Assembly: GCF_964204865.1 (NCBI RefSeq)
Contig: NC_135250.1
Coordinates: forward strand, 32,541,395-32,605,394
Reading direction: 5' to 3'
DNA: 64,000 nucleotides
DNA from: Styela clava
Lineage: Eukaryota; Chordata; Ascidiacea; Stolidobranchia; Styelidae
Below the pieces are notes generated by a model, which was not told the origin of the DNA, searched no databases, and was given only the letters and a program-made list of their open reading frames with translations. Shown in pieces: positions 1-55,489 of the stretch (position 1 is its first letter; each line of letters begins with the position of its first letter). Both the position numbers and the translations under genes were made by a program.

Positions 1-3000
1 CGCCTACTAAGTCCAAAAGCCCTAGTAGGATCTCAGACCCCTCAATACGGCCAACAGAACAACTTGTTGCCGGTCGGCATGCCAGGTACGATTTTCATCT
101 TTTGGTCACGGAGTGGATGGAATTGTTGTTATGGTGTAAAACACTTTTCTCCGCAGCTCGATTTCAAGTTTTTACAACTTAAATTCTATGAAGCTCCCAC
201 TCAAATTTTTTATTTCACTTCAATTCATGGGAACACGTTTGTACGACATTTGGCATTGTCCTTGAGGACAGTGGTTCAGGCGGCAATGACTTTGTGCAAT
301 GCAATATTTCTATTCGATATTCAGCCACTCCTTTGGTGTTCTCATTTCCCCACCATAACCAATGGAAATGCTAAATCATTACCAAGCTAGGATCTTCCAA
401 TTTCTAAGCGATTGCTCGCACAATGTGCTGTTCGCAACGAAGGCGTTATAAACATCATGTTCAATAATGATTATTATCTTGAAATTATATTAAACCTAAA
501 TATTCAGGACGCCATTCGTGGACGGCCATGTCATCACCAACGTCATCGTTGCTGAGCAACCGACTACATCGGCTGAATTTGAGACTAAGCGCCCCAACTC
601 CGGGCGAGGAAGAATTGTGTCGCCATTGGATGCAAAATAGTGCAAAATATAGTCGACGTAATAATGAAGAACTAACACGCAGTTCTAATTTTCCCGCCAA
701 TGAGAAACGAAATTTAGCAAAAACACAAGAAAGGCCTAGAACAGTACAGGTTTGTATTTATTTTCTTGCATGCGCTAAGAATTTTTCAGTGCTGGTGTTG
801 GAGCAGTTCTTATGCTAACACCAATATCATTTCCAATCAGATTCTCAATATACTGTTCAACGAACGCGAAACATACGTTTAGGAACATATATGTTTATGT
901 AATAAGCCGCCCTGACTATGTTACAGCCTACTTCTAAACCAATGTCTTACGCTTTACACGCGCAGCTACACACCAGTGCTGAAAAATTTGGATTTTCTGT
1001 ATTTATGCAAATTGTAACGAGATAGCCGGAGCGGAACCAGTAGATATTTCCAAAAATAGCAACATCTTACATATCAATGACCACATGTACAATACTTTCC
1101 TCGGGGGGAATGCGTGTGAACGTCGTGTACAAAATTATTTATAGTAATTGTATTCTTCGAAGATTTTTTGAATCTCTGTATTTTTTCCAGACGCCTCCGA
1201 ATCATCCCTACAAAGATTTACTTTCCCAACGTTCAGCCGAGAAACGGAAAGTTGTTGTCAACGTTACGTCACCAAACCAAGAATGTGTGACTTCATCGGA
1301 TTCTGATCGAATCACTTCACCAACAACTTCACAAAGAAGCTCTGGAGGTCTGCGAAAACCTGTCAATAAGGTGTGTAATATGGCCCATCGTATTTTTTCA
1401 ATTAAAAATGTGTGCAGTGTTTTGAACTTGGTTGTATGTTGGAAATATGTTAGAATATTTCAAGCTTATGTCGAGTAGAGAGAGTACAAGAAGCCTGTAT
1501 CTGTAGTAATGAGGGAGTTTCTCTTTTTCGCCACCTTCTTTTTTAAATTTTTTCATTTGTTATAAAGGCCATGTCGGCCAACATAAACAAATGAGCAAAA
1601 CAACAACAAATGAATCTTTCTTGAAACAAAGTCAATCCTAATAAAAACCTCTATCTCGTGAAAACCTTTAACTTTTGTAATCTTTTTCAGTTCCCCCTCA
1701 GACGACCATCGGTATCTAGTTACGACCGAGGAGGAGAAAGTCGAGGTAATTCCCCTGCTGGATATAAAACCGACCTTTCTGGGAATCGTCAGAGTGAAGG
1801 CATGACCCAACCTCGTCCCCCGTCTGCAAGACCAAGTGAAGCTAGATGGCGCAACCGAATACGGACTTCTCACTCCCCCCTAAGTAACACCAGAACAAAT
1901 AGCGCAGGCAATCCCAGAGACCAACGGCGATGGTCCCTGAATGACACAATAATGAATCAGCAGAATGACTCAAAAGATGATGACTCGGCATATTCGTCAT
2001 CACGTGACATAACGGTTAATATAGAAAAAACACCAAACAATCCAAATACCCCAGTAGGAACCCCTCCTAGGTCGGCTCCGAACTTGCGGAACGATAATTT
2101 TCCTTCATCTACCTCAAAATTAGACGCCTCTAGGAGTTATGGTTCCAAAGTATTGGTTTCCGGACAAGATGGCCGATCAGTGCTTTATTATCATCATAAT
2201 AAAGCAAACCAACGACAATCAGAAGCTGAAGAAAGTCATATATTACGTCACAATACAGCAACTTATTGTCATCTCCTACCTTTACGTCATAAAGCAAGCT
2301 CACAACAGCGGCCGAAGACCCAACCTGCTATGGTAAGTTTCTATGTAGCATCGCCTGGAGCAGGCGATACATATAGTATCGCAATTCTTCACTTTCTAGT
2401 TTACAGATTAGTTTCGATTAGGAACAATATTTTCAAGCGAAGACTGTAAAAGTGGCATTTACAAGAGGGTGAAGCATTTATGATTACTGTATCTCCTGCT
2501 TTCATTGTCCAATTTTGTTTCAGAATTCTCAACGAGCCAGAGATTCTTTGAAACGGAAAGGGACCACAGACCAGCGACAACAATTAATAGAAAATGCGGA
2601 AACTAAACTGATGCAAAGGTAAGATATGGGGAGTCGGATAGATGGCTGAAGTTTTAAGCCCCAACCGAAACTTGAAGGTGTACTGAAGAAAAAGTTGCGA
2701 GATGCCACTAATTAGCTGAGAGTTGCATCAATAGAATGCGGTTGATAACGCGTGTGACCTTTCGAGTAAACACTGCCGTGGAAATGGATATGAGAAAAAA
2801 AATCCAGATATCGATCATATTATGTTTGTGTTTGTTAGAATTTTATTTAAATCACAATGCGAACTACTAGATTTGTGTAGCCTGTCTGTACCCCTGTCGG
2901 TGCTTTCTGTTTATCCATGTGTATCTCGCAATTTAACCAGTCAATAGATAGTTAAGTGATTCTAGCCTAATATCAAGTCTCAATTTTGGTCGGTTTGGAT

Positions 3001-3441
3001 CAGTGTCCACACGTAATGACCTGAACCGTTTGGTTCATAATTCTTACAAAACTCAATCAGCCGCCCAATCCTGGGTTGAATACGACCATCAACCAATTTC
3101 GGATAAGACCATTAAGCCAACTTAATATCTTGCTTAATACTGCTTGCGTTGATTTTACTTTTCAATTTTCTAGAATAATGCCGAACACGTCATTATCGAC
3201 AAAAGAAGACAAAACAAACTCAGTCGAGTACCATGTCGGACCAAAGTTTTATCCAATTTCCTTGGGAGATTATGATGCAATAAATAAACAAAGAAGGTCA
3301 ATCACGAGTAACCAAGAATCAGTAATGAATTACGTGGACCCGGAAGTAGGTCAAAGGATCGTACAGTGGTTAGCAGATATTGAACAAAGTCCTGAGGTCT
3401 ATTATGGATTTGAAACAGATATTTTAAAAACACATGAATGA
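1..3441 (+). CDS. 3' part of an unrecognised Ser/Pro-rich disordered protein
   Basis: Six exons join in one open frame, giving the last 503 residues and a stop: 1-85 (frame from base 1, 5' end outside the window), 508-749, 1191-1370, 1691-2332, 2524-2618 and 3174-3441. Every junction has GT-AG ends and matching phase, which is the main evidence that this is a real gene. The protein is rich in Ser, Pro, Arg, Asn and Thr, with no membrane segment, signal peptide or known domain, so most of it is probably disordered. The last exon (about 90 aa) looks more ordered, with a hydrophobic and acidic stretch around YVDPEVGQRIVQWLADIEQS that may be the conserved C-terminus. I do not recognise the family and assign no function. 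A possible ATTAAA polyadenylation signal lies at 3500-3505. The internal exon chain is more certain than the first exon. Confidence 0.72.
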
Positions 3442-6400
3442 CTTAATATAGACTTTTTTTAGTCAACGAATCTAAAACTTCAATTCTTGCCAAAATTTAA
3501 TTAAAAAACAAATATGTACAACTATTTCGGATAATCTGGTGGTTTTACAATCGTTTGTAATTCAACTGAAAAGTAGCTTCGAACTTTACCCTTGTGTTAT
3601 TCAAATGTGTTATATGGCCGAAAAATTCAAATGACAACATTATTTTTATTTACATTTTTACTGTTGTGATCTACCTCAGACTTCGTGCCTCTATAGCACG
3701 TAAATTCCATCGTATTTTGTCGTTCGAAATTTAAACAAAATGTATATTTATCGATTGTTAATGACTGGGTAGATATTAATGAATTCAGCTTTACTACAGA
3801 TGTTGAAAATTCAGTTCTCAGATCACGTCAAGCGCGCGATACTTTTTTTTTCAATTTATTCTATCCATCGACGTCATTCATTTAACCATTGAAACCATTA
3901 TAGGAGAAAGTTCTTTGGACTTGATTGGCAATGAAAGTTTTGTGTAGTTTCCCACAAAAAAGTTTTCTATTGGCAAATGTCGATGGATTGAAGTTCAAAT
4001 CTTTTATAATTGTTTAGGAAATTTTATAGCGACTCACATAAGTAAATAAACTTCTTGGTTTAATTGACTTATCTATTTTCATGTTCTATATTTGTCCAAA
4101 AAATTAGCGCAATGAAACCAGACTCAAAAGCTGTGAAAACTCGTTTTTTTAAATATTACACCAAACCTTTCTATCCAAACTTTCCTTTATTTCATCACAA
4201 TCATGCTGACAAAGATTTATGTTCTACATTATTTTTTCATCACTCTGTTTTCCCTACATTCCGTGTGTATTGGTTGCTTTATTTATTTACCGTTGTTTTT
4301 ACCTGAGTTACAGTTGACAGTGATATAAATGAACATGAACTGATAAACCAAGATAACCTATAAAGTTCATATCTTCATGGGGTTGGCTTTTTAGATAGAA
4401 ATGTTGGAAGGGCGCGGTGTCGAATAAATGTTCTATTCGCTTTGAAGTCTCTGAAGAAAATAATTGTGATGAACCCATTTTCGTACACTAGGCTTTTACT
4501 AGCCCCAACGTCAACTAAGAGTCTCAAAGCAGCAGAAATCAAAGAATGACTTTCTATTCAGAACATCATGCTATTTATTAAAGGACGAACAGTATGCGTT
4601 AGCAGGCTCTAATGCTTTGGTCGTATAAAGCGTTTCTAAATTTTAAGAAGCAAATTACCACATTCTCCTCAGCAAATACAATATAAAATCCCAATGAATG
4701 CGAAATAGAACAATTCATCTTTGAGACCATGTCTAACAACCATACGACTCGACTGACAAATAGGTATCTCTTCCTTCCAAATTGGCAAAGAAGTTAATCT
4801 ACAACTAAGTCATCAGGAGAGCATATGTCATCGTTCTTCGAATTGAGACTTTCAAAACTGGAAAGCGCATCCGGATGAGATGATTTCGAAACAGTTTCAG
4901 ACATTTCAGATTTATTGACTCTAAACCGGGAAATTAATTTCCAAATTCGAGACCCAGGTTGGTCGAGTCAAGGAACTGCGCTCACGATTCAAGTCAGGTT
5001 GCTGTTTATAAATCGAGCCCGAGTCATATTAAATTTCATTACTGAAAGAGAAATGTCACATTGGTACTTTCATCTTACGCTAAATCAAATTTTTCATAGT
5101 TAAACGAGTATTTAACCAGTACTGATTAAACATTTACCCCTGCATACACATGGCCGATCCTGAGTGATTATGCAACACATTGGAGAATTTTCCATTTCTA
5201 TTCAAAAATAATCTACGTGGTTAATCGTTTTTCAAAACTTGTTCGCTATTTTAGAGACGCAAAATTGCAGTTAAAATACACAACTTTCGTTTACCGAATC
5301 AACAACCACAGCAACTATGCAAAAATTTTAATAATTTGCGGTAATATTAATAAGTCTTGTTTGAAATCGACAAAGGATCGAAAGGCACATTGAGATCGAA
5401 ATTCTGTAGCCAGATTCGAAGACAATTTTACAGCGAATTCATTCTCATACGAGGGGTTATTGACAATTTTCAATTTTTTTTCCCAAGCAACAATCGAGTT
5501 CCTGTTCCTTTTTTTGACAAAAAAATATCCATGACCCGATATATGCAGCGGATATTAGGGTAACTTTGGGTAATACTGAGTGTAATACGCTGATTCGCAC
5601 AGAGAAAACGCCTCAATGAAAAAGTTGACCAAATTATAAAGTTTTGTTCATTTTCGCAACAAATATTATCGGGTACAAACACAGATATTTAGCGCGCGGT
5701 TCAAGAATGCGGCTGTGGCTCAAGGGAATACGCAAAATACATTCTGCGTAACAGTGAGAAACTTATTGAGGGCGCTAACTTTGGCAGATTGTCTAGTTCG
5801 TTTGCTTCAGATATTTATGAGTGGAGTAAATGGGGCGTTGTTTTAGGTTAAGTGTAAACATGCTGGTAATTCAGATTTAGAATAGCTGATGCGGAGGAAG
5901 GCTGTGGATTTATTCATTCTTTTATCGGTATCCAATAAGGGCTGATGTAGTACGCAAGGACTATTGAGAAGTTCGCTAATATTTTAGAAGTTTGATATCG
6001 GCCTTCTCCCCTGGCTCAAATAACCGTTGAATTTTGTGTAGCCAGAGTTTCACTGTAACTGTTAAGAACAAACTTAAAAGAACATGTTCTGAATTGCTAG
6101 TTATTCGGTTCGCCCATGTAAGAAATTTGGCAGTTTTGGGTTTGTCCGTTTGTCAAAATCTGTCAACTCAGTACAGAATCGGGTGGTAAATCTGAATAGG
6201 TCAAGATGTGTTTGTGCCTTTCGAAATAAATTGTAAAAATGATAATTCCATTTCATTTAAAAAAGTGAAAAAAATATTTGAACGGCAAATTTTCAATATT
6301 TTGTATTGGATGGAAGGCGAAAATAATGTTAAAAACTTTGAAACTAAAATAATAATGTACTGCCAAAACAAAATGACCCAAATATTAGTGAAGCGCGAAT

Positions 6401-15216: not shown

Positions 15217-18200
15217 ATGGAGGACGGTCTAAAATACGTCATCAGTAAAGAAGGAATAATTAAATTCATCGTCATATTGTTCGGCTGCGTCACATTCGCG
15301 CTCCTAGCGGACACCGGTTATTATTATTCGACTGAAATGAAATGGGTTCTGGCTGCTTTCATCATTTCGTTTTCATTATCTGTGCTGTTCTACTTCTTCC
15401 GTCTTATAAGTAAGTCAAATTTTCAATTTTTTTTTGTCAAATCGGTTACGAAATATACAAATAGATTGTTCAACAGAATTTATGTTGTTGTTATATATAT
15501 GTTGAAATATCGCTTTTCATCGCAGTCAATGGCAAATTTTCAGTACTCGGTATGGAGTTGCTATAAGACCAGTATTTTTTATTTTTCTATGAACTCCGGG
15601 GCACAATATTTCATCAAAATTTTTCTGCTTATTTTAACTCGCCGGAACACTTTTATGGCATATGGGAACATTCTAATGCAGTTGTCCTCAAACTTTTTAA
15701 GCCCCCTTTCAGAATTTGTCTCGAACCCCACCGCAAAAATGACTTGCTGAAAATTAGCAGTTATAAATAACAGATAGTAAGACGAAAGTATGTCTTATTC
15801 AAAAAACACGTGGATGGAACGTCATTTCCAAAAAAGGCGAGCAAGATTAAATCTAACAAATATTTTTATTTAGCCTTACGCCCGATCAAAAATTTGTCTA
15901 CGCCCTCTTGTGTGACAAAATCCACCGTTTGAGAAGCACTGCTCTAATGACAAATGGGGACATTCAGATTTGATCTCCGTGCTCGTACATCTAAGCATTG
16001 CTATCCTGCTTTGAATTACCGAGAACAAAATACGTTAACGATCGCAAAATGATATATTTCAGAACTTGCACCGAAGATGAATTGCGGAGGTCCCTTCTCT
16101 TATGACGGATTTGATTTCCTCTGGGCCTGGTTTTCAACTATCTGGTGCCTCACTGCTTCCATCGTTTTCAGCATGCATTTTCCAAAATCAGAGTGAGTGA
16201 AATATCATCAAGAACGCGCCCGAATGTGGGTTTATGGTATCATCTTGTCTGTTGCGGTGACAGCGAAGTCTTTTCTCAGGCGATATATTGTTGTCTGCTT
16301 CAAAAATTTATGGCGTAAAGTCGTAAACAAAAAAAAATCCTATTTTCTCATCTTCATTCACGCAACTTAACGCGTATAAGTCATAACTCGCTTGAGTCCA
16401 TTTTCGCAGCACTAGCAATCCTGGATGAACTATTTGGGAAGCAAGTTGATGAAAAGGCCTAATATGTGTGTTTTTGTTTCATTCAGTTTCTACAAATACG
16501 GAGAAGCAATCGGGAGCATCATATTTGCCTACTTGACTGTCATAGCTTACGCTGTCGAAGCTTTCTTCCTGAGACTGTACGCTCCGGCTAACATAGGTAA
16601 GACTTCAATGCAGAAGAAGAACAAAGCTGGTATCTACCAGGAAGCAACTTCGAGAACCCCTGGCTCTTTCACTATGAGCGTTCCCACATTGCGTATACCG
16701 GAGAGACAGATCGGGGTATAGTTGTTGAACTGGTACCACTACTAGGTGTTTGCCGAAACCTTAATTTGAGCAAACATTCGTAGCCGATCAATGAGAATGT
16801 TGACGATACATATAAATTTACCATCGCGACGGAGGCGTCATTAAACACTGATTAACGCAAGACTTGAAGCATTTCACATTACTCTGGCAAAAAAAAAAAT
16901 TGCATAGAGTATATTCCCACTTTTTAGAAAATTATTCAGAAATTAAAATATCTTTTTTTATATACGGAATGTATAATAATACGCTCGATCCAACACAATA
17001 TAGAAACACCAAGGTTGACAAATTTGTACAAATGCTTCACGAGCAAACATATTTAATAACATATTTCAGACATAATATATATAATAATATACATAATAAA
17101 CATATTTCAGATTTATTAAGGAAATTGTCACATGCTGTAGGGATTTTGAGTAAAATTCATAAACTCCTCCCCACTCAAGTTCTGCGTATGATATACTTTG
17201 TACTCTTTCAGTCCCATATACAATATGATTTGGTGGCATGGGGATACTCGGCTACTAGCAAATTGTCAAAAATGATAGAAATTCTACAAAATAAAGCTGT
17301 GAGAATATTATCTAATTCTCCACCTCGCTCCAGTTGTACCCCTTTATTTGCTAAACTAAAAATACTCAAATTCAAAGACTTGTGTCTTTTTAAAGTTGCA
17401 AAAGTAATGTATCAATATTCATCAAATTTATTACCAAGAGCTTTTGATAATTATTTCACGGCACAGTCTCATGTAAATAGCCACCACACTCAATCATCAG
17501 CCCAATGATCTTTTTTTGTTTCAAGATGTAAATCAAAGCGGACACAAAGCGCTCTGAGATACACCGGGGTAAACATTTGGAATGACTCACCTCCTAGCAT
17601 CAAAGCCTCAACATATCCAAATTTCAAAACTCAGTTACGCAACTATTTACTATCCTTATATTTTTCATAAATGTGTGTTGCATTTCCCTATATCATAGTT
17701 TTATTTCAGTGTCTCCTAGACATGATTCTGTGATTGTTGGTCTTTAATATTTCTTCATGTACATTGAGATATTTTACTGTCATGCAGACGTCTTTTCTCG
17801 TTTCAGTACTGGTATTTATTCCTTTGGTATCGTACTCTTTCTAGTCCTTACTTAATATGTATTGTCCAATTTTTTCCCAGAAACGCTAACCAAAGTGTGC
17901 CTGAACAGCACCGCTTCGAAATAATATAGGGGGAAATCCCAATTCTATAAACAACAAGGTTTATTATTGCCTTGCAGCGTCATCTTGGGGCGATGCTGTT
18001 CTCGCATAAAAACGTTTCGCGCTGTGCTAATTTTGTAGCCATAAGTTTTAAGCTATTTAAGGTTGCCGCTGACAAGTAGACCGAATGGTCATTTCGCGGT
18101 TATCCCGTCATTCTGTACAAATTTTTTTTTATTTTTCTTGTTTTCATTTTGTTATATTTTATCGGAATGACAAATAAAAAACGATTTGATTGATTCTTTT

Positions 18201-26863: not shown

Positions 26864-27220
26864 CAGGATAGGATAGGATAGGATTTACATATTTATCCCG
26901 GGGGAGAGGAAAGCCGATAAGACGGCTTATCCATATGGCGAACCACGGCCTCTCGTCCGGTTACCATTCCAAGTCGGGTATGGGATTAGTTTTACTGTAT
27001 TGTTTGTTTTCGGAAGCATGAACTTGGTGGTGGAGGAAGCCGTAACCGACCAGCGGTTACGTGAACCACCCAACGACGGCGAGGAGTCCAGCAATCCTCT
27101 CGCACATAACCATCCCTGCATGGGATTCAAACCTGCGAACCCACGCAGAGTAGTTAGAGGTGCGGTGGCGAGCGTATTCCTAACGCTTAGCCCGTTGAGC
27201 CACACCGCCGCGCCGGAATG
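26864..27220 (-). repeat. tRNA-derived SINE, fullest copy
   Basis: Read on the minus strand, the element starts with a tRNA-like head: GGTGTGGCTCAACGGGC resembles an A box and GGTTTGAATCC a B box. A roughly 200-base body follows with the phrases GAGGATTGCTGGACTCCTCG and GGTCGGTTACGGCTTCCTCC, then CTAATCCCATACCCGACTTG. It ends in a short tandem tail of CCTAT units at 26866-26885. Five other copies in the window share the body, which shows a dispersed family. An overlapping 92-residue open frame is not a gene. Confidence 0.8.
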
Positions 27221-31234: not shown

Positions 31235-32628
31235 CCTTTTTCCAGTGGCGGCGCGTGGACATTTTGACAACCGGGGCAAGCTACTGCGGGACCAAGTCAC
31301 CCCCATCTACGGGGACAGGATGAGCGCTGTAAGTTCTCCCATCATTTTATGAGTATAAAAACCATTCCATCGGAAACAACCAATCGGCAAAAACGACAAT
31401 TTTTAACGATAAGAAAGTGTCTTTAAAACCGGTCCAAGTCAAGGGATTAATAAATATAGACATAGTTTATTTTGAAACCTCTTTCAGAAGGAAAGGCAAT
31501 ATTTACCCAGATAAATACAATGACATATTAACAGAAACTTCGGGAAAGCAGACAAAACCTAAAATAAGGTTTAAAACGTTACTATGAAGAAAGGAAAGGT
31601 AATGCAAAGATAAGGACATGCGTCGCTCACTCATAGATATATATGCTGCTAGACTTCTACTGCTTGAACATATATGCAACACGCCGCAGTTTCTTGGAAG
31701 CAAAATGCTCAATAACGCGCTGATTAAAGTCATGCATCCCAGAAATAACGTCTCTGTGAATGGATAAAACAGCCAAGGAATTTAATCTATCTTGCTTCAT
31801 TGTGTTTCTGAGATACGTTTTAATACGCTTCAGCGTGCTGAATGTTCGCTCTGCGTCGGCGGAAGAAAGAGGCGTCATCAAAATGATGTCCAGAAATTTT
31901 GCAGACGCCGCAAAGGTAGTTACTAGAGTGTTATTTATGAGGAACCCATAGAGCGCGCAAGTTGATGTGATGTTCAAAAAAGTTTGATTGGTGTATATAC
32001 ATCGCAATTCATTTTCCAATTTACCCACGTTTATCATGGGGTAAAAGTTGGAGACAGTAGCCAACAAATGGAGTGGAAATTGACGTGCAAATTTTGAAAA
32101 ATTTTTGGGGTTCATCAAAGAGAACGCGGCAAGGTGTTCAGTGCGCAGACGATCGCCTATTTGATTCACCAGAATGTCACAGCATTCCTTTGCAGACAAA
32201 ATCAAACGCTGCGTTATTTGCCCGCGGCGTAAAGAAGCACTCCATGTGTCGTCGTATTTTATTGTTTCCCGGATACGAGATAGAGCATCGCAGAAGTCTG
32301 AAATACACGACTGCATAGACGCTCCATCCATTAGCCTTGACTGCAATGCGCCGTATAATACATCCACGTGATAGAATATTGTGGAGAAAAAGGCGAGAAA
32401 AAATGAAAACTCACCATCTTCTAGCACAGTGATTCCCAAAGTGGGCGATATCGCCCCCCGGGGGGCGAAAAAGTCCAAGGGGGCGATTTCGCGAAACCTG
32501 TTTTATGTTCGGCGCACTTAATTCTGTACTCTGTGTGCATTCGCAGGCTTGAATCATGTGGGCGATTATCACACGCGAAAGGATTGCTGGACTCGTCTTC
32601 GCAGTAAGGTACGGTAGTTTGCGTATCC

Positions 32629-33895
32629 CAGTGGTCGGCAAAATACGGCCGGAGTAAAATAATCTGGCCCGGGACGATTCACTGAATGGACCTTTCCCCG
32701 ACCTTTGACCGTGGAAAATTCTTCCCATACTTTACCACTTTAATAAAATTTTCGGTGCTTATTTTAAGAATGGTTTCGCGAGTTGTTGCCTGTAAAATGG
32801 GGTATTTGTTTCAAACTATCATTCTAATACACACCATTCAACAATCTGTTTTTTAAAAGTACCGATAAAGAATTTAGCCTAGTCTATCACAGCTATTTCT
32901 ACACTAATTTGTGATTGCTGTATTTGAACTGAAACTCATAGGAAGACAAAGTAATCATTGACTTATTTGATTTAAATTTCCGAAAAACAACTAAAAACTA
33001 ACGAATATGATTCAAAAACGCGAAAATGAGGTAACGTTCACGACCCCGCCTGAAAATCTGTCTGAGTGAGCGTGTCTGAGAGCCTGAGCGGATGCGAAAG
33101 GGGGCATTGATACGTTTTTTGCATCTTGCTGATTGGCCAATGTCACGAAGTAAACAAGGAAGTCTATGCCCGGGGAAACATCCAAACGGCGGTTTTGACG
33201 ATGAAATTTTTTTATTTATAATCTACGCTCGAGGATTAAATTACATTTTTTTACGTAACAGAATTTATCGTGACACACGTTTGAACTAAATTTTATTATA
33301 TCCTAAAAATTCCATTGAACAGCTAGCTACTAGTTTAACGAGCCTACAATTTAATTATAATTAGACAAATGGAAACACGAAGAAAAGTTGATGCTGAGGC
33401 AGGGGTTCAATAGCGCAGTCAATATTCGAATATATTGCAAAGCAATAAGGAAATCAAATTCATATTCTATTCGAGAGATTCATCACTGCTTACTCTTTGT
33501 AAGAATGTATCTTCTTAAAGAAAATCTTTATCAAAATTTCACAAATCATGCGAAAATATTCACTTCGATGTTTGGAAGTACATATTTGTGCGAACAAATA
33601 TTTTCGAAAATGAACATTACAAAGAACAAGCAAAGAACTGGGATTAGTGATGCCCATTTAGAAAATGTTTCAATCTTGGCGTCGTAAAGCTATCCAGCGT
33701 GATGCAGCAACAAGACAGTGTCACATTAAATGTCATTGTAATATTTTTTTAATAAGACGACTGAGTCGAGTTCACGAATTGTCGCAGTTTTTGCGCGCTG
33801 TTCCGTTTTTGACTTTCAAAAAATATATGCGACCCGCAAAAGACTAGCAACCCTGAATTTTGTCCTGCGAGCGACATAAAATTTGCCGACCCCTG
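32629..33895 (+). mobile_element. hAT element C, innermost, inside the SINE
   Basis: The left end is CAGTGGTCGGCAAAATACGG and the right end reads, inverted, CAGGGGTCGGCAAATTTTAT: 12 of the first 13 bases agree. Candidate target-site duplications GCGTATCC (32621-32628) and CCGTTGCC (33898-33905) agree at only 5 of 8 bases. The SINE consensus has ACGTAACC there, so both may be mutated copies. It holds a deleted transposase remnant. Confidence 0.72.
33369..33687 (+). pseudogene. Internally deleted hAT transposase of element C
   Basis: A start METRRKVDAE at 33369 matches the first residues of GTF2IRD2/EPM2AIP1-type hAT proteins (K-R-K-V-D near the N-terminus). After a stop, a second frame gives the C-terminal hATC block FTSMFGSTYLCEQIFSKMN followed by NKQRTGISDAHLENV, ending at 33687. 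The zinc finger and catalytic core between them are gone. It cannot encode a working enzyme. Confidence 0.75.
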
Positions 33896-36534
33896 GGCCG
33901 TTGCCGATAGTCGGTCACGGCTTCTTCCACATCCGAGTCCATAAATCCAAAAACAAATGGCTGGTTTAATTATGGACCGGTGATCAGACTGGTGGCCGTA
34001 GTAGAATGAGGAATCGGGATGAATTTTACCGAAGGATTTTGGTGCAGGTCATCAGGCTGTACGAATGAATGAGATGTACGAAAATCATTATTATAAGTTT
34101 GGGAACATTAACTTTGTTTTCATTATTTTAATGTGAAATGGGGTGAATTTAGGAAGTGAATTGCTATAAGGCAGGAGTACACGGCGGTTTTTGAGGAGGT
34201 AGAACCCTGGATTCTTTCATTTCCGACCTATTATATGGTGAAAAAGAGATTTTCAGTCGTGTTACTATTGCTATCAAAACAACGAAATCGCCTTTCCACC
34301 AGTAAACGGGGTAATTTTAGATATAATAAAAAACTCGCTGAAGAACACCAAGCTCATCTATCTCATAAAACACTATAAACTATGATTTGTCTTCTTATTT
34401 GGTCTGTAATATATTCGTTTCTGACTTTACATTTTTTTGTATTGCCGGGGGGCGATGAAGTTGTATAAACTACTTTAGGGGGGCGATGGTCAAAAAAGTT
34501 TGGGAACCACTGTTCTAGCAGACGCTTTAGACCTGCCGCCTCCCTCACAGAGCGTTCGTCCCAAACCGGAGAGCTCTGAATGCCATTGAAACACTCAATG
34601 AGCTCAGACCTAATTTCGGACACGCCCTGCACCACGCGTGATTGGAAGTTTCAACGTGTTGGTGCACAAGCTGGGAGACGGCGGCTACATATCTGGCGAA
34701 TGAGGTCAGAGCGGACGAGAGGGGTATCAAGACACATATTTTTAATAACGAGGTTAAATTGGTGTGCATAACAAAGTAAAAAATGAGCATGAGGAAAATC
34801 TTCTTTTATATAAACTTGAGCACCATGTTTCGACCCACTCATGACTGCCGCGCCGTCATAAGTTTGAGCTATCAATTTTGACTTCGCGTTGTAAGGCTGT
34901 AACACTTCTTTCAGTACAGCCGATATCCCGCAAGCCGTGCGATCAACGATTGGTACAAAGCTGTGAAATCTCTCGGTAGGTTTACCATCTTTCACAAACC
35001 GAAAAATCACAGCCAGTTGGGAAACGCACGTGATGTCAGTTGTCTCGTCAGACTGAATCGAAAGGAACTGGCAATTCTCAATTTCCAGAGCCAAATGTTG
35101 TAAATAAATTTTATACATTGAGTCGAGCAAATCATTTTGGATATCCTTAGATGTCCCTTTCGAAACAGTTGCGGCATCAAGATGATCTCTCAATACTGTA
35201 TCTAGGGATGTGGTGTATTCCACCATATCCAAAAATACCCCTCTATTAGAAGAGCCAGCCCGTTCATCGTGCCCACGGAGGGACAGCTCGTGACAACCAA
35301 TGAACTTCAAAACATCTATCAATCGACCGAGAACATGGCGGTTTTTCTCGACGTTTTGGTTGTGCCGACGAATAGAAACCGCGCGTCCTTCATCCAACTG
35401 TGCTGCAATATTAACATTTCCGAATGTTCGGTATTTTACTGCATTGTCCAGATGCTCCATAGAAGATTGATGATCCCTGGCACGCTCGGAAAGATGTTTA
35501 AGATCTCTAAAACCAAATTTACACCAACGTGAGTCACGGGCGGTATCAAAAAGTAGGCAATAAAAACAAAAAAGTGCATTTTTGTCCTCGCTGTAACACA
35601 ACCATTCGTGTTTTTTATACCAAGCTTCTGCGCAGAATGTACGCCGACGCTTTCCTCCGTCATGGGATTGTTCCAGTGAACAATTTTTTGGTTGATAAGG
35701 CCCAAGACGTTGTACCTCTAATTTTTGTTCCAGCGGCAGCTGCGAAAACGGAGTGCGAAGTAGTGCATCAACCTTATTCATTATGAGGTCTAAGGCTAAA
35801 AAAATGCGAAGCCGGGAAGAAGTGAGGAGCTCAAAAGGAATGTGGAAAATCGAAAGCAAATGGACTAAAAGTCTCTAACTGATTCAAATAGCGAAACAAG
35901 CGACAAAAACGAAGGCGAGGAAACTATCAACTCTTCAAGCAACCAACGAACGAGAAGGAATGCGTGAATATGTCAACACGTTGTTGTAAGAAACGTCGGC
36001 ATTGTGTCGTCATAATTTCGGGGCTAGCCCCGATCGGCCCCGATGATTTAGTAAAAGAAACAGAAAACAAACGAGACAAACGCGGCGAGTGGAAGATAAA
36101 AGAGAGAATACGATATACAATGAGCAACCGGGGCAAAATCGGCGTCGCCCCGTCGACGTTCGGCGAAGGCTTTGCGAGCGAAAAATGAACCATGTCGGGA
36201 GAATATGGCTAGTGTAGACAGTCTGTGCAACCGATATTGAGGTATTTTTCGAATATTTTTTATTAAACTGAAAAAACAACCGGGGCATTGCCCCGGTTGG
36301 CCCTATTGACGCGCCGCCACTGCCTTTTTTCGATTTCTTTTTAACTCAACTTTCCAAAATATCATTAAAATCGACAACAACTGTCAAAGCAGGCACGAAC
36401 ACCATTCGTGCTATGCCTTGAAAGCAGCACACATCCGCTCGTTCTCGTCTCGTCAAGTATGTGCATTGGAGCGTGTTATCGAATACGATCTTCGGCCAAA
36501 AATGCCGGAGTTGCGCATCATGTTGTTTAATGTC

Positions 36535-41100: not shown

Positions 41101-44100
41101 CAATATGAACTTTGATTCTTCCCTTATCGTCATTGGTGATATAGCCTCCAAGCAGCCCCATAACTTCATGTCTTGATAAATGCGAATGAGCATCCACAAC
41201 AATCAATGCCGATGCATGGACTGTGACATCATAAGGGCAATCCTAGCATAAGAATAAATACAAAGATTTATGGCGAGCAAACGTATGTCACCATATTTTG
41301 GGGTATGTTTTCATATTTATCTTGAGATGAGGAACGGCTTAATCATATTGCAGACCATGGCCTCTCACACGGCCAACAGTTCAATATGGTGAACTAGTCG
41401 TTTATTTCAGATGCAGGGACTTGATGGTAGAGGAAGCTGTAACCGACCAGCGTTACGAATGCATGGACAACACAAACATTGAACGAGTATTTTTTATACC
41501 GCAACCTTTCTTATTCATATAGCCAGGCATTGTTTCTAATTTACATCAGGGTTGAGTACATAGAATAAGTAGAGGAAGTTGAGTCATGCAATGCACAAGG
41601 AAATTAAGTCTAATTTTCATATGAGATTGTGGCAGCTTTGTCCTTCAAGCATGCGTAAAGGTTTATTGAGACAACTTGCCACTGTTGCAAAGTATGTATG
41701 GGCTCTTGGAGTTGAATTCTGTATATTATTTTCATCATATTATGGACCATAACTCACTACGCCAACTTATATGTCCTACAACATTATCGGACATCCAGAC
41801 AAGGTGTATCATGATTTAGTACAATGATAGACAGCTAAATCGGCTTGCAAATACCACACAGTAACCTTGCAACCAAACAAGGTTCGCTGTATGCTAGGCC
41901 AATGTCCCACGAACATTTCAGCCATAGCTATATTGATTTTAATGGGAATAGATGTCATAAAAAAGAACCACATGGGGCATAAGAACCTTCAGGTTAGATG
42001 AGAATATTTGTATATAATTGACATATTCCAACAGTGCTGGCTGTACAGACAATAACGCCATTTCGGTGAATTAATTGCTAGTAAGATATCTCCAGATGTG
42101 ATATTCATTTTTTTTGAGGAGAGCTGGGCCCCAACCAAGTAGTGGTTAGTATTATGTCACTCTTACATTAAGATCTTAATAATACCCAGAAGCCAGTCGA
42201 ATATCAATGAATGAATACTGGAGCAGCAAAGACTAGAGTAACAAGAAGAGATAACTTACGACTTCATATTCGTATTCTTTGCATTTTATCAATTTGAATT
42301 TGTTAACATTTGACTTGGGTTGCGGCTCTTCCTTGCTTTGTGGGATCACAATTTGATTGTTATTCGCATGATCGATCGTGTATCCACCAATCAGATTGTC
42401 TGTGGCAGGGATGATGGAGGCGGGCCTTTTGCGACTTCTCTAAAAAAAAAATTTTTATTGGCAAATAAGGGAAAGGTTCAAAAATTTGTCCAGTTTGATG
42501 GGAAGGCAAAAATACAGCTTAATCATATGGCAAGCCATGACATCTTGTCCTGTTAACCAGTTATTTATTTAGGATGTACAAACTTGAAGCTGTAAGCCGT
42601 AACCGTTGGTTGCTTGAACCACCCTATGACGAGGACAAGTCCAGCAATCCTAACAGACATAATTATTCAAACTTGCGAACCCATAGAGAGTCATCACCAG
42701 TGCAAAGGCAAGCATATTTCTGAAGCTTAGCATGATGCGGCATCATTTTCATAGGCAAGGTCAATCATTTCCACACATTATTCGATTTAATGGTCATATA
42801 TTTAACATATATTTTTAATTTTTAGAAAAATTAGAATATTTTAGAAAAAAGTCACAATATTTCCAAAAGATGATATACTTATGTACTTTCTGAATTTCCT
42901 AAATTCATCTCATTAAATATGCAGACTCTTCAGTGTGTTCTATGTAATCTAATTCGGAATAAAATTGATATACCATAATCCAAAAATATAAATATATTTT
43001 CAGAATGTATTTAGAATAGCATATTACTTGGTTTTGGCTTACATAATGAAAATATGCTCTGCTGAACTCAGATCCAATTTGAGAAAACCTAAACATAGCC
43101 ATATGAGATAATATCAATCGGTATAACTGCATTAGCACTATAGTTTGGTGGCCGTTTAATTTATTTGGTTATGCAAGATTGGGCATAGCTTATGGTTGGT
43201 GGATATGTATCCCCCGTTGTTTGTTATTATAGAAAACCCCTCGAATAAAAAATTACCACTCACTCCACTCATTCTTTGCTCTAAGGCCCGTTTGAGTTTG
43301 AAATCTGTATCCAGAGCTGTATGGTTGTTGATTGATTGAGGCCGATCTCTTGGCTTCTGTCTTTTCTTTTGCTTTTTCCACCAGACCAGGTCACTCCCAT
43401 AGTTTATTGCACCGACTGATTCAAGGTATCTGTGTGAACAAAATTGTTAGAAAAGTTGAAATTCTAAACATACTTCAAATTATCTGCCCTAAGCCAAGAA
43501 AATTCAGATCTGGGGTGGAATTGCTCCATGGAAGATAAACCCTGGCTTAAGTGGCAGACACATGGGTTATCAAGTCTGCATTGTTAAAAAGTTCAGCAAT
43601 CAAGAGAAATCAAAAATTCTGCCTGTTTTTGCCTCATTCGGATAAACTGTCAGTTGGTTTGAACGAGGTACATGATGCTTGTATTCAGGTCTGCATTGTA
43701 TGAACGGAAATCGGTTTACAAGATTATTTAGGGCAATTCAGGGCAATAAAAACAAATCAATTATTGAGTGAGCCAACGATGTTTGAACAGGAAAATAAAA
43801 AGAATTATGATCATTTATATTCCAGAAATTATAGCTGGTTTTTAATGTTGAACAAATTTGAAAGTGAATGAAGATTGCTCTGAACAAAGATCTAAACGAG
43901 CATGACTAAGCATTTTTACAGGGTCAGGATACGTCCCTAATTCATGTCTTACTTGAATGAAGAAGCCTAGACAGACCCAAGACCTACTATACCAATGTTG
44001 GTATTATTGTGGGTGACAAGTCAAAACTGAATTACAAACAAAAAATTAATTTTACATATGGCCTGTAGAATTAATGCAGTGGTAATGCTAGGATATAAAA

Positions 44101-52031: not shown

Positions 52032-53450
52032 TCAGCAGACGCCCTCAGTAACAAGCCTTGCCTTGTCAGACGTCTTGGCTATGATGTCATCTCCCGCTGC
52101 CACCTCTTCAATGATCGGTTTCTGCAGTGGAGTGTCTCCTGCCGCTACGTCCTTCCCCATGGAGCCGCCAGAGAGAGTACGGATGCGATTCTGTGTGTCT
52201 CGATCCTGTGATCCAGTGGAACAGCCAGAATATGTACGAGATCGTGCGAGACGTGACATGATGACAGATGGGATGTAGCCAAGACCTGTTGATGGAGAAA
52301 ATAAAATTACACGAGATAAAGAAAAGTCAGGCACGACATATAGGGCCACTGATATTAAAAAATAGGGATTCAAAAAATACAAGATTAAAAACTTGTTTTG
52401 AGGATATTATAAGGAGGAGATATCTGCCATTTGAATTAGGATGATAAACATAATTTATGAAAGAGGTGGGACAGTAATTTTCACTCAAATTCAATGTCAA
52501 TTCGAACCTTGCAGGAAGTAAGTGATGGCTTCCGCAACCTTGAATGTCTGTTCTTCGAGGATCATCCCGCCCGCATCAGCCATCTTCAAGAATGTTGTTT
52601 TTCTTGGGTTGAGTCGAGAGTTGAGTTCCACGACCTCCTCAACAAATGGAGACATATCACCCACTAGGAGGAGTGTGGAGCACGGAATTGAATGCTTTTC
52701 GCCCTCTTCAGTAGTGGGTCCGACAGTGCGAAACACGTTGATTTCAGTGCGACGTTCGTACTCCTTCAGCAACAGTTGAACGTTGTTTGCGTTCATGTTG
52801 TTCTGCAGATGTTTGCGATGAGCCTCGACTAATTCATGGTTGGCGCGTTCAACTTCCTCTTTTGAGAAATGGTAATTCAGTAGCTGCTCGTGGAGGGGAG
52901 TTGCCCAGTTGGTGATCTTACTGCCCAGCCATGAAAGATTTCCAACAGCTCCTCTAGTGGCATTGACAGCAATCAGGCCATCAACAAGAGTGGGATTCTT
53001 CATAGCGAAGCGAGTTAGAACATTTGCTCCAAGTCCGCATCCAATGCAGATGGCCTCCTTGATGGAAAACTTGGTGAAAACCTTGGCGACCATATCGGAA
53101 AGATTCTCGATGGATGGATAAGCAAATCCCGTCTCCTTACTGAGATCGGGAGCGTTTTCTTGCATCCCTGGTGCATCAATGTGATAGACGCAGAAACGAT
53201 TGCGAATGGATTCCATGTGCTCTGAGTTGAACAAAGAGCTGAAGTTGGATACATGATTCATCCCGATGTCATGGAAAGTGATAAAAGGCTTTCCGGTTGA
53301 GCGATCACCTTGAATGGTGACATGTACATCAACAGAGTGTGATGCGCCATTGTAAATATACGAGCATTCCACAACAACCGTTTCACCGGCCGTTGACTTC
53401 TCAAACAGCAGAGGTTTGGCTTCGGATATGTTAATTTCTTGAAGCTCCAT
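52032..53450 (-). CDS. NDRG: NDRG family protein (N-myc downstream-regulated)
   Basis: Two minus-strand exons, 52508-53450 and 52032-52285, give 398 aa. The split falls inside ITYFLQG-LGYIPS, exactly where other NDRG proteins read YFVQGMGYMPS. Family signatures are present: VHVTIQGD, ITFHDIGMNHVSNF, VYHIDAPGMQENAP, YPSIENLSDM, LLVGDMSPFVEEVVELNS and KTTFLKMADAGGM. The fold is alpha/beta-hydrolase, but the nucleophile elbow reads IGCGLGANV with no Ser, so it should lack hydrolase activity, as is known for NDRGs. These proteins are cytoplasmic scaffolds in stress response, differentiation and trafficking. The Ser/Arg-rich tail (SRLARSRTYSG, RIRTLSGG) resembles the phosphorylated tail of NDRGs; the NDRG1 decapeptide repeats are absent. 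The N-terminus MELQEINISEAKPLL aligns with other family starts. I cannot assign a particular vertebrate paralogue. Confidence 0.96.
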
Positions 53451-55489
53451 GTCTGCTTTGGGGCTATAGTAATTCTTGACAGACTAGGTTTAGGCTGATA
53501 TGAGTCTAGAAACCGAAAGTTTGAAGACTGGAATATCTTTAAAAATTCTAACTCACCACTATTTTGTCTAGTGAAAGTACCTGTGAAATTTTTCAAATAG
53601 ACGACTGGTTATCAATTGTTGCATCAATCTATTCTCACTCAGTATTATATACTTTTGTATTGTAATGGCCTGAATCGGTAACCAAGTTGAATAATTAGAA
53701 TATCAAACTTTCCGGACACAATCCAAGCCCTATACTGCATTTTCCATTCACACACAATATTTATGAGCTTAAAATTGTGTAGTCAAACTTTGGTGTGTAA
53801 ACAGTTAAACACCGAGATAATTTAATTATGATGATAGCTGGGACGAATCACAATAGCCCTAAGCGAAAGCCTGCTTGGGCCGGGGATAAACACTCAGGCA
53901 AAGTACACTCCAGACATGGTCTGTGTGTGTATTCAACTTGCCAGACAACAAGAATGACGGAAATAAAACCTGGGTAAACAGAATGTTCCGCGTCGTTTGC
54001 TTCAATAGGAACCAAAACATCGGGTTTCAAATTTCGAGTGTGATTATGATGTCACCTTTTATTGGCGGCTGGTTGGGCAACATTGAAATTAATTAAGTTT
54101 GAAATACATTAAAAACTATATCTCATTTCACAAACAGTTTCATTGTAAGATTTTGCCAAATTAAGTCCTTGTCATATTTCCTTATACAGCAAATAATGAC
54201 TTTTGTAAACAGCTGATAAAAAACTTTTGGCAACCAAAATCATAAACGCAAGTTATAATCACCAGTAGTGAGGTCTTGCTATATGCTTCGAGAAAGCTTG
54301 GATGCCCAAGCGAAATACCCTGCAATTTTCCAAATTGGTATAACATACAAATCCAGACCGATTTATTATAGACACCTGTGTAACTTTGTGAAATTACTCT
54401 GTAGTATTCTCACTGCTGAATTATGTTTGTCGAAACTACATTAGCATCTCCTATTCATTGCTGAACATTCATTAAATATATTATATTAAAATGTAGCAAA
54501 GAATCCAACCAGACACTGTACAATATGGTTACATTTGCTCAATTTACACTTCATTGGTGATTCAGACAAAGAATATGGCAACACTCATCTATCGACGTCA
54601 TCACTTTTTGTTAAATCAAAACCAAAACACAGAGTCGAGTTTCAAATCAACACAAAGAAATGTCTGAAGAACAGACGACACAGGAAGATTTTTCATGTTG
54701 TTCATATCCAGGCCTGTTGTTTATCAGATTAGCAAAATAAAAAACTCTTGCCAATGTACAAATGTATAACAAATAAATACAGAGAAATGTATTACATTCT
54801 TTGTCATAATCTAATGAAAAGTTTAAGGATTAATTTGAATATGATAGATCTTGTGGAAATGAGTCATTGTTAGAAAGTAATAAATAATTTAGATCGTGAT
54901 TATGATATAATAGACATGATATGATAGTATGATTAATTTTGGTAGGAAGCCAAATCTGCAATTTCTATAATAGAGATAACGAAATTTCTAAGCTATTATT
55001 ATGAGATATAAAGATATTTATATTCTTTATTAAATGTGTCCATTTATCAAGTAACTACAGGGACAGCTGATTTGTCAAAAACGATTGATCTCTACAAATT
55101 TCTTTGCCGAAAATTTAAAAATAGGAGAGAGCTTTTATGAAAAGTGATTCAATTGGTTCTCTTCTTTTGCAGTTTTCAGAAATTGAACGCTCTCTGAGAC
55201 TTCAGTTGCTCAAAATGACAAATTTTGAAATAAAATTATTCGTTTTGGACATCTCCGCCTATTATCCCCTTTGTGATGTATCTGAGCACAACCCTGAATA
55301 TGACTAGAATGAGCAATGAAGCGAAGTAATTGATTTCATGCCCTGATAACCAAGCAATGTCCTGCTGTTTCTATTGAGTTTAATTAGGAAACTCAGCATG
55401 TTGGAGGATAATCTAGGTTTCCACTGGGAAGCTTTAATGCAATAACACATGGGTCCTGAAAGAACTCGATATTCAATATGGAATATAAA

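Follow-up and report, generated by a model that had tools for sequence, protein, structure and literature searches.

Nested elements at the locus

The window, a stretch of 64,000 nucleotides of the Styela clava genome (C1:32541395-32605394; the genome searched comprises 376.6 Mb in 379 contigs), contains four transposable elements lying one within another (Table 1): the hAT element A, the non-autonomous hAT composite B inside the transposase gene of A, a SINE inside B and, splitting this SINE into two halves, the hAT-like remnant C.

Table 1. Positions of the nested elements and of their parts, counted from the first nucleotide of the window.
Feature	Position	Strand	Evidence
Element A (hAT, split by B)	31243..36322	-	14-bp perfect TIRs; other left-end places
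Left target-site duplication of A, CCTTTTTC	31235..31242		7/8 match to 36323-36330
Right target-site duplication of A, CCTTTTTT	36323..36330		7/8 match to CCTTTTTC
A transposase, N-terminal part, DUF4371, stop-terminated	34651..35874	-	PF14291, 1.8e-17
A transposase, C-terminal part, hAT dimerisation	31657..32502	-	PF05699, 1.3e-8
Element B (non-autonomous hAT composite with SINE and C)	32427..34512	+	Other end-to-end places; duplications
Left target-site duplication of B, TTCTAGCA	32419..32426		Perfect 8-bp match to the right one
Right target-site duplication of B, TTCTAGCA	34513..34520		Perfect 8-bp match to the left one
Apparently old SINE, left part	32527..32628	+	Alignment to uninterrupted SINE 27003-27152 (minus)
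Apparently old SINE, right part	33896..33957	+	Alignment to uninterrupted SINE 27003-27152 (minus)
Element C (hAT-like remnant between the SINE halves)	32629..33895	+	Inverted ends; junctions recurring in other B copies
108-aa open frame in C	33361..33687	+	Weak match to PF05699

Element A possesses the features of a hAT transposon, namely an 8-bp duplication, short terminal inverted repeats (TIRs) and a transposase with a dimerisation domain. Its matching ends and 7/8 target-site duplication, both described in an earlier interpretation made from the letters alone (hereafter the sequence-only reading), were confirmed: the TIRs, at 31243 and 36322, are 100% identical over 14 bp and are flanked by CCTTTTTC and CCTTTTTT. 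A is like other DUF4371 hATs in combining DUF4371, the hAT dimerisation domain and 8-bp duplications, and shows no notable difference from them; we take this group to be the zinc-finger MYM-type-like one. The left end of A was recovered at 39 other places with 98-99% identity (best 40 of 905 candidates scored), and the best 20 of these 39 constitute the A sample. Of the other copies that were read at both ends, most measure about 3.0-3.1 kb, and the duplication, compared in 11 such copies, is perfect in eight, 7/8 in one and unmatched by a simple reading in two. Another A copy, L048, carries a stop-free frame of 711 aa, relative to which the transposase of the window copy shows a 19-codon gap near 34712 and one stop. 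Judged from this comparison, the damage to the window transposase is therefore due to B plus other lesions, and not to B alone.

B splits the A transposase with a perfect 8-bp duplication and the reading frame continues in phase across it, as had been claimed: B and one duplication together add 2094 bp, which is divisible by three, and the transposase halves on either side of B align in one frame to the 711-aa frame of L048. The stop-to-stop frame of the C-terminal half extends into B from 32427 onward. Among the 20 fetched A copies, 12 run uninterrupted through the B site with an overlap of exactly 8 bp, as expected from a duplication, four (L045, L046, L050 and L058) are likewise contiguous there apart from small gaps, three (L041, L042 and L054) have lost the site by deletion, and the match to one (L047) stops short of it. 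None of the 20 carries B at the window site, and the sole B-related match among them lies at another position, in L045. At this locus A thus preceded B, and this is the sole step of the nest order that belongs to the window locus.

The SINE was confirmed within B, its two halves aligning with another copy, the uninterrupted SINE at 27003-27152 of the minus strand (115/165 identities). The family of this uninterrupted copy was found at 39 other places with 99% identity over all, or all but one, of the query bases (best 40 of 1721 candidates scored). Identity between the B-borne SINE and the window copy of this present-day, 99%-alike family is only about 70%, so that the former is, on the alignment, old or derives from a distant subfamily. 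When the joined halves were used as a query, all 40 scored matches (best 40 of 754 candidates) ended at query positions 92-94, i.e., at the junction, and at least some of these are B copies that the B query had recovered before; no equally good uninterrupted SINE of the old subfamily was present among these best 40 of 754. By eye, the copy around 27003-27200 has what we take to be a B-box-like motif (GGTTTGAATCC) and a tRNA-like head, and the ARAGORN and Rfam scans of the window returned no matches. Another SINE relative, with weak similarity (25/31, E 0.013) to the B-borne SINE, lies at 42551-42720 on the minus strand.

Element C is bounded by inverted ends with 16-bp arms of 94% identity (32627-32642 and 33882-33897), which pass C by 2 bp. 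Its open frame matches the hAT dimerisation family weakly: the E-value is 0.13, and the score of 12.5 bits falls short of the curated cut-off (21.4). The claim that C splits the SINE stands insofar as the same SINE halves align across the C site; the duplication that should accompany it is invisible in the window copy, where GCGTATCC faces GGCCGTTG. This duplication, imperfect in the B family, is inferred through one diverged relative of the B composite, L059, in which GCGTAACC directly follows the right end of C and matches the left flank of C in B at 7/8 positions. L059 is 73% identical to the B composite (685/938 columns) and has the right parts of C, of the SINE and of B in common with it. 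Since the right part of B is among these, the nesting of C in the SINE is probably older than the split between the B and L059 families. The relative itself (3612-4581 of L059, minus strand) lies close to an A fragment, and contains a 113-aa frame that by eye resembles the dimerisation-like frame of C.

B, the SINE and C as a composite family

The B query (best 40 of 5398 candidates scored) recovered, together with the window copy, 27 end-to-end colinear places with the SINE and C inside, at 91-96% identity; because the query itself includes the SINE and C and the fetched B copies are those that matched it best, the sample favours complete copies. Window B was aligned with 29 other copies. It shares the left SINE|C junction with 28 of them, some of which show point changes there, and the remaining copy (L038) is without the left part; every one of the 30 rows has the right junction. 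Taking all reads together, the left junction was found in 38 of the 39 B left ends read (the window, L010-L037, the second copy in L060, and L062-L069). The one exception, L061, has lost it by a deletion of query positions 177-472 and keeps the start of the SINE, the right part of C and the right junction. The right junction was found in all 32 copies read there (the window, L010-L038, the second copy in L060, and L061).

The same association extends across the genome: a 34-base query for the left SINE|C junction, allowing up to 3 mismatches, had hits at 239 places, and its reversed control at none; the B left end (33 bases, with up to 3 mismatches) occurs at 422 places, again with a control of zero. 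Left ends thus outnumber junctions, and eight of the surplus, picked because no near-exact junction was among the matches listed nearby, were read: in all eight, part of the SINE is present and C follows it at the usual position; these are diverged junctions, several of them with small gaps. B copies free of cargo may exist among the remaining left ends beyond the 39 read.

The left end was readable in 29 B copies, the window copy included; 28 of these have duplications matching at 7-8 of 8 positions (L032, 2/8), and the right flank has TA at positions 4-5 in all 29. The flanks vary from copy to copy, and the B copies are therefore independent insertions of one packaged element. B shows what characterizes a composite MITE: one and the same SINE position, many copies, and independent sites.

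Several structural variants were observed among the copies. L060 contains, at 1197-5358, two B composites arranged head to head, about 97% and 92-95% identical to the window copy, with both SINE|C junctions kept in both. In its left end, at 32459-32460 and just downstream, window B is without a 21-bp stretch found in the 28 aligned left-ended copies and without an 11-bp stretch found in many copies. The number of C/G-rich subterminal repeats differs among B copies.

Divergence and order of insertion

Compared with 28 other copies, window B differs by a median of 5.8% in the right part of B and 5.7% in C, 5.5 and 7.1% in the left and right parts of the SINE, respectively, and 3.2% in the left end of B. 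Because the SINE and C are about as divergent as the right part of B (about 6%) and share their position among copies, they were in B long before B reached A; a later entry would leave both agreements unexplained. In the A sample, the mean pairwise difference is 1.65 and 2.16% for the two parts compared; as the sample consists of the best matches to the left end of window A, the family as a whole may be older than these values suggest. The A trees are star-like and the B tree has deep supported splits; within the sample, A looks like a young burst. The window copy of A has 23 private changes in 2794 positions (0.82%) and that of B 14 in 2082 (0.67%), with tree end branches of 0.0127 and 0.0070 (two parts) for A and 0.0115 for B. 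These counts agree with B entering after A, but the values lie too close together to establish the order, for which the nesting is the evidence.

The sequence-only reading had proposed a strict order of activity, A, then B, then the SINE, then C, with each element inserted in turn at the window locus. The physical nesting, the matched ends and the duplications are compatible with such a stepwise history, but the SINE and C occupy the same positions in 38 of 39 B left ends (deleted in the 39th) and at 239 places, the window SINE and C differ from those of other B copies by about 6%, just as the right part of B does, and the junctions are shared by unrelated loci with different duplications. The strict order is contradicted by these observations and the likelihood of four successive local insertions, already refuted by the shared junctions, is practically nil. 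The finding that the sequence-only reading had itself set against its order, namely that B or C always occurs together with the SINE as one composite family, is indeed what the B left ends read and the genome-wide junctions display. An insert within B may predate the movement of B, and thus an order in which the SINE and C arrived after B had entered A does not follow from the nest. A jump of the SINE into B after B had reached A was rejected as well, its position and divergence being common to other B copies.

The constancy of the interior could also be accounted for if C and the SINE were native parts of the B ancestor rather than inserts, as the B copies read carry both and the diverged relative L059 (about 73% identity) has the same right parts of C, of the SINE and of B. 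An uninterrupted SINE from a dispersed family nevertheless aligns across the C site, C has inverted ends of its own, and in L059 an 8-bp stretch matching the left flank of C at 7 positions directly follows the right end of C, all of which makes a native interior very unlikely.

Taking into account the anatomy, the duplications, the B-free A copies, the shared junctions and the relative divergence, B[SINE[C]] is in all likelihood an old package copied as a unit, with A arriving at this locus and one packaged B then entering A. The SINE would have entered an old, non-autonomous, hAT-type B once, in an ancestor, and a second hAT-like element, C, would then have entered that SINE in B, likewise once and in an ancestor, after which the package would have multiplied as a single unit, reaching no fewer than 239 places. 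The DUF4371 hAT family A would separately have spread in a recent, star-like burst, with one copy landing at the window locus, and one packaged B would later have entered the transposase gene of that copy, generating the fresh TTCTAGCA duplication. The four-layer nest is real; its outer step, B into A, is alone local, and its inner two layers came ready-made.

As with DNA transposons in general, the transposase that moves B would recognise its ends and carry whatever sits between them. In 30 B copies no long frame was found, the longest one free of stops measuring 87-140 aa, and B was thus presumably mobilised in trans, and its TA-centred 8-bp duplications point towards a Buster-like hAT transposase acting on the B ends. 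It appears very improbable that the dimerisation-like frame of C or the internal promoter of the SINE aids the spread of the composite or damps its transposase; were either the case, it would explain the zero cargo-free B among the 39 left ends.

Related systems and other features of the window

The closest precedent is MER6/MER6A of mammals, described as a MITE, i.e., a non-autonomous DNA transposon, that took in a SINE, the composite then multiplying as a unit (PMC6887750). MER6 resembles the B composite in that a SINE cargo multiplied with a non-autonomous DNA transposon, and differs from it in being a Tc1/Mariner element with a V-domain SINE, whereas B is a hAT with a SINE split by a hAT-like remnant. 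In view of this comparison, we regard the B composite as a further example of a MER6-type SINE-carrying transposon, the hAT carrier being the difference. Elements of the Buster group of hATs, e.g., the Mar MITE of Drosophila, have 8-bp duplications with the consensus nnnTAnnn (PMC3517528), and this central TA is shared by B (positions 4-5 in 29/29 right flanks), which differs in being without a transposase frame of its own in 30 copies. No description of the B[SINE[C]] composite was found in the literature searched, and it may well be present in a repeat database. The composite adds a hAT with a SINE and a hAT-like remnant inside, present at no fewer than 239 places, to the DNA transposons that spread SINE sequence. 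It also offers a clean case in which nesting, taken by itself, leads to an incorrect order of insertion, since an insert lying further in can have travelled with its carrier.

Outside the nest, two further open frames were observed in the window. The frame at 16852-17508 (plus strand, 218 aa) by eye resembles the terminal part of a non-LTR reverse transcriptase, and its only Pfam match was a weak one, below the cut-off, to another family. The frame at 52497-53483 (minus strand, 328 aa) belongs to the Ndr (NDRG) family (PF03096, 1.7e-82).
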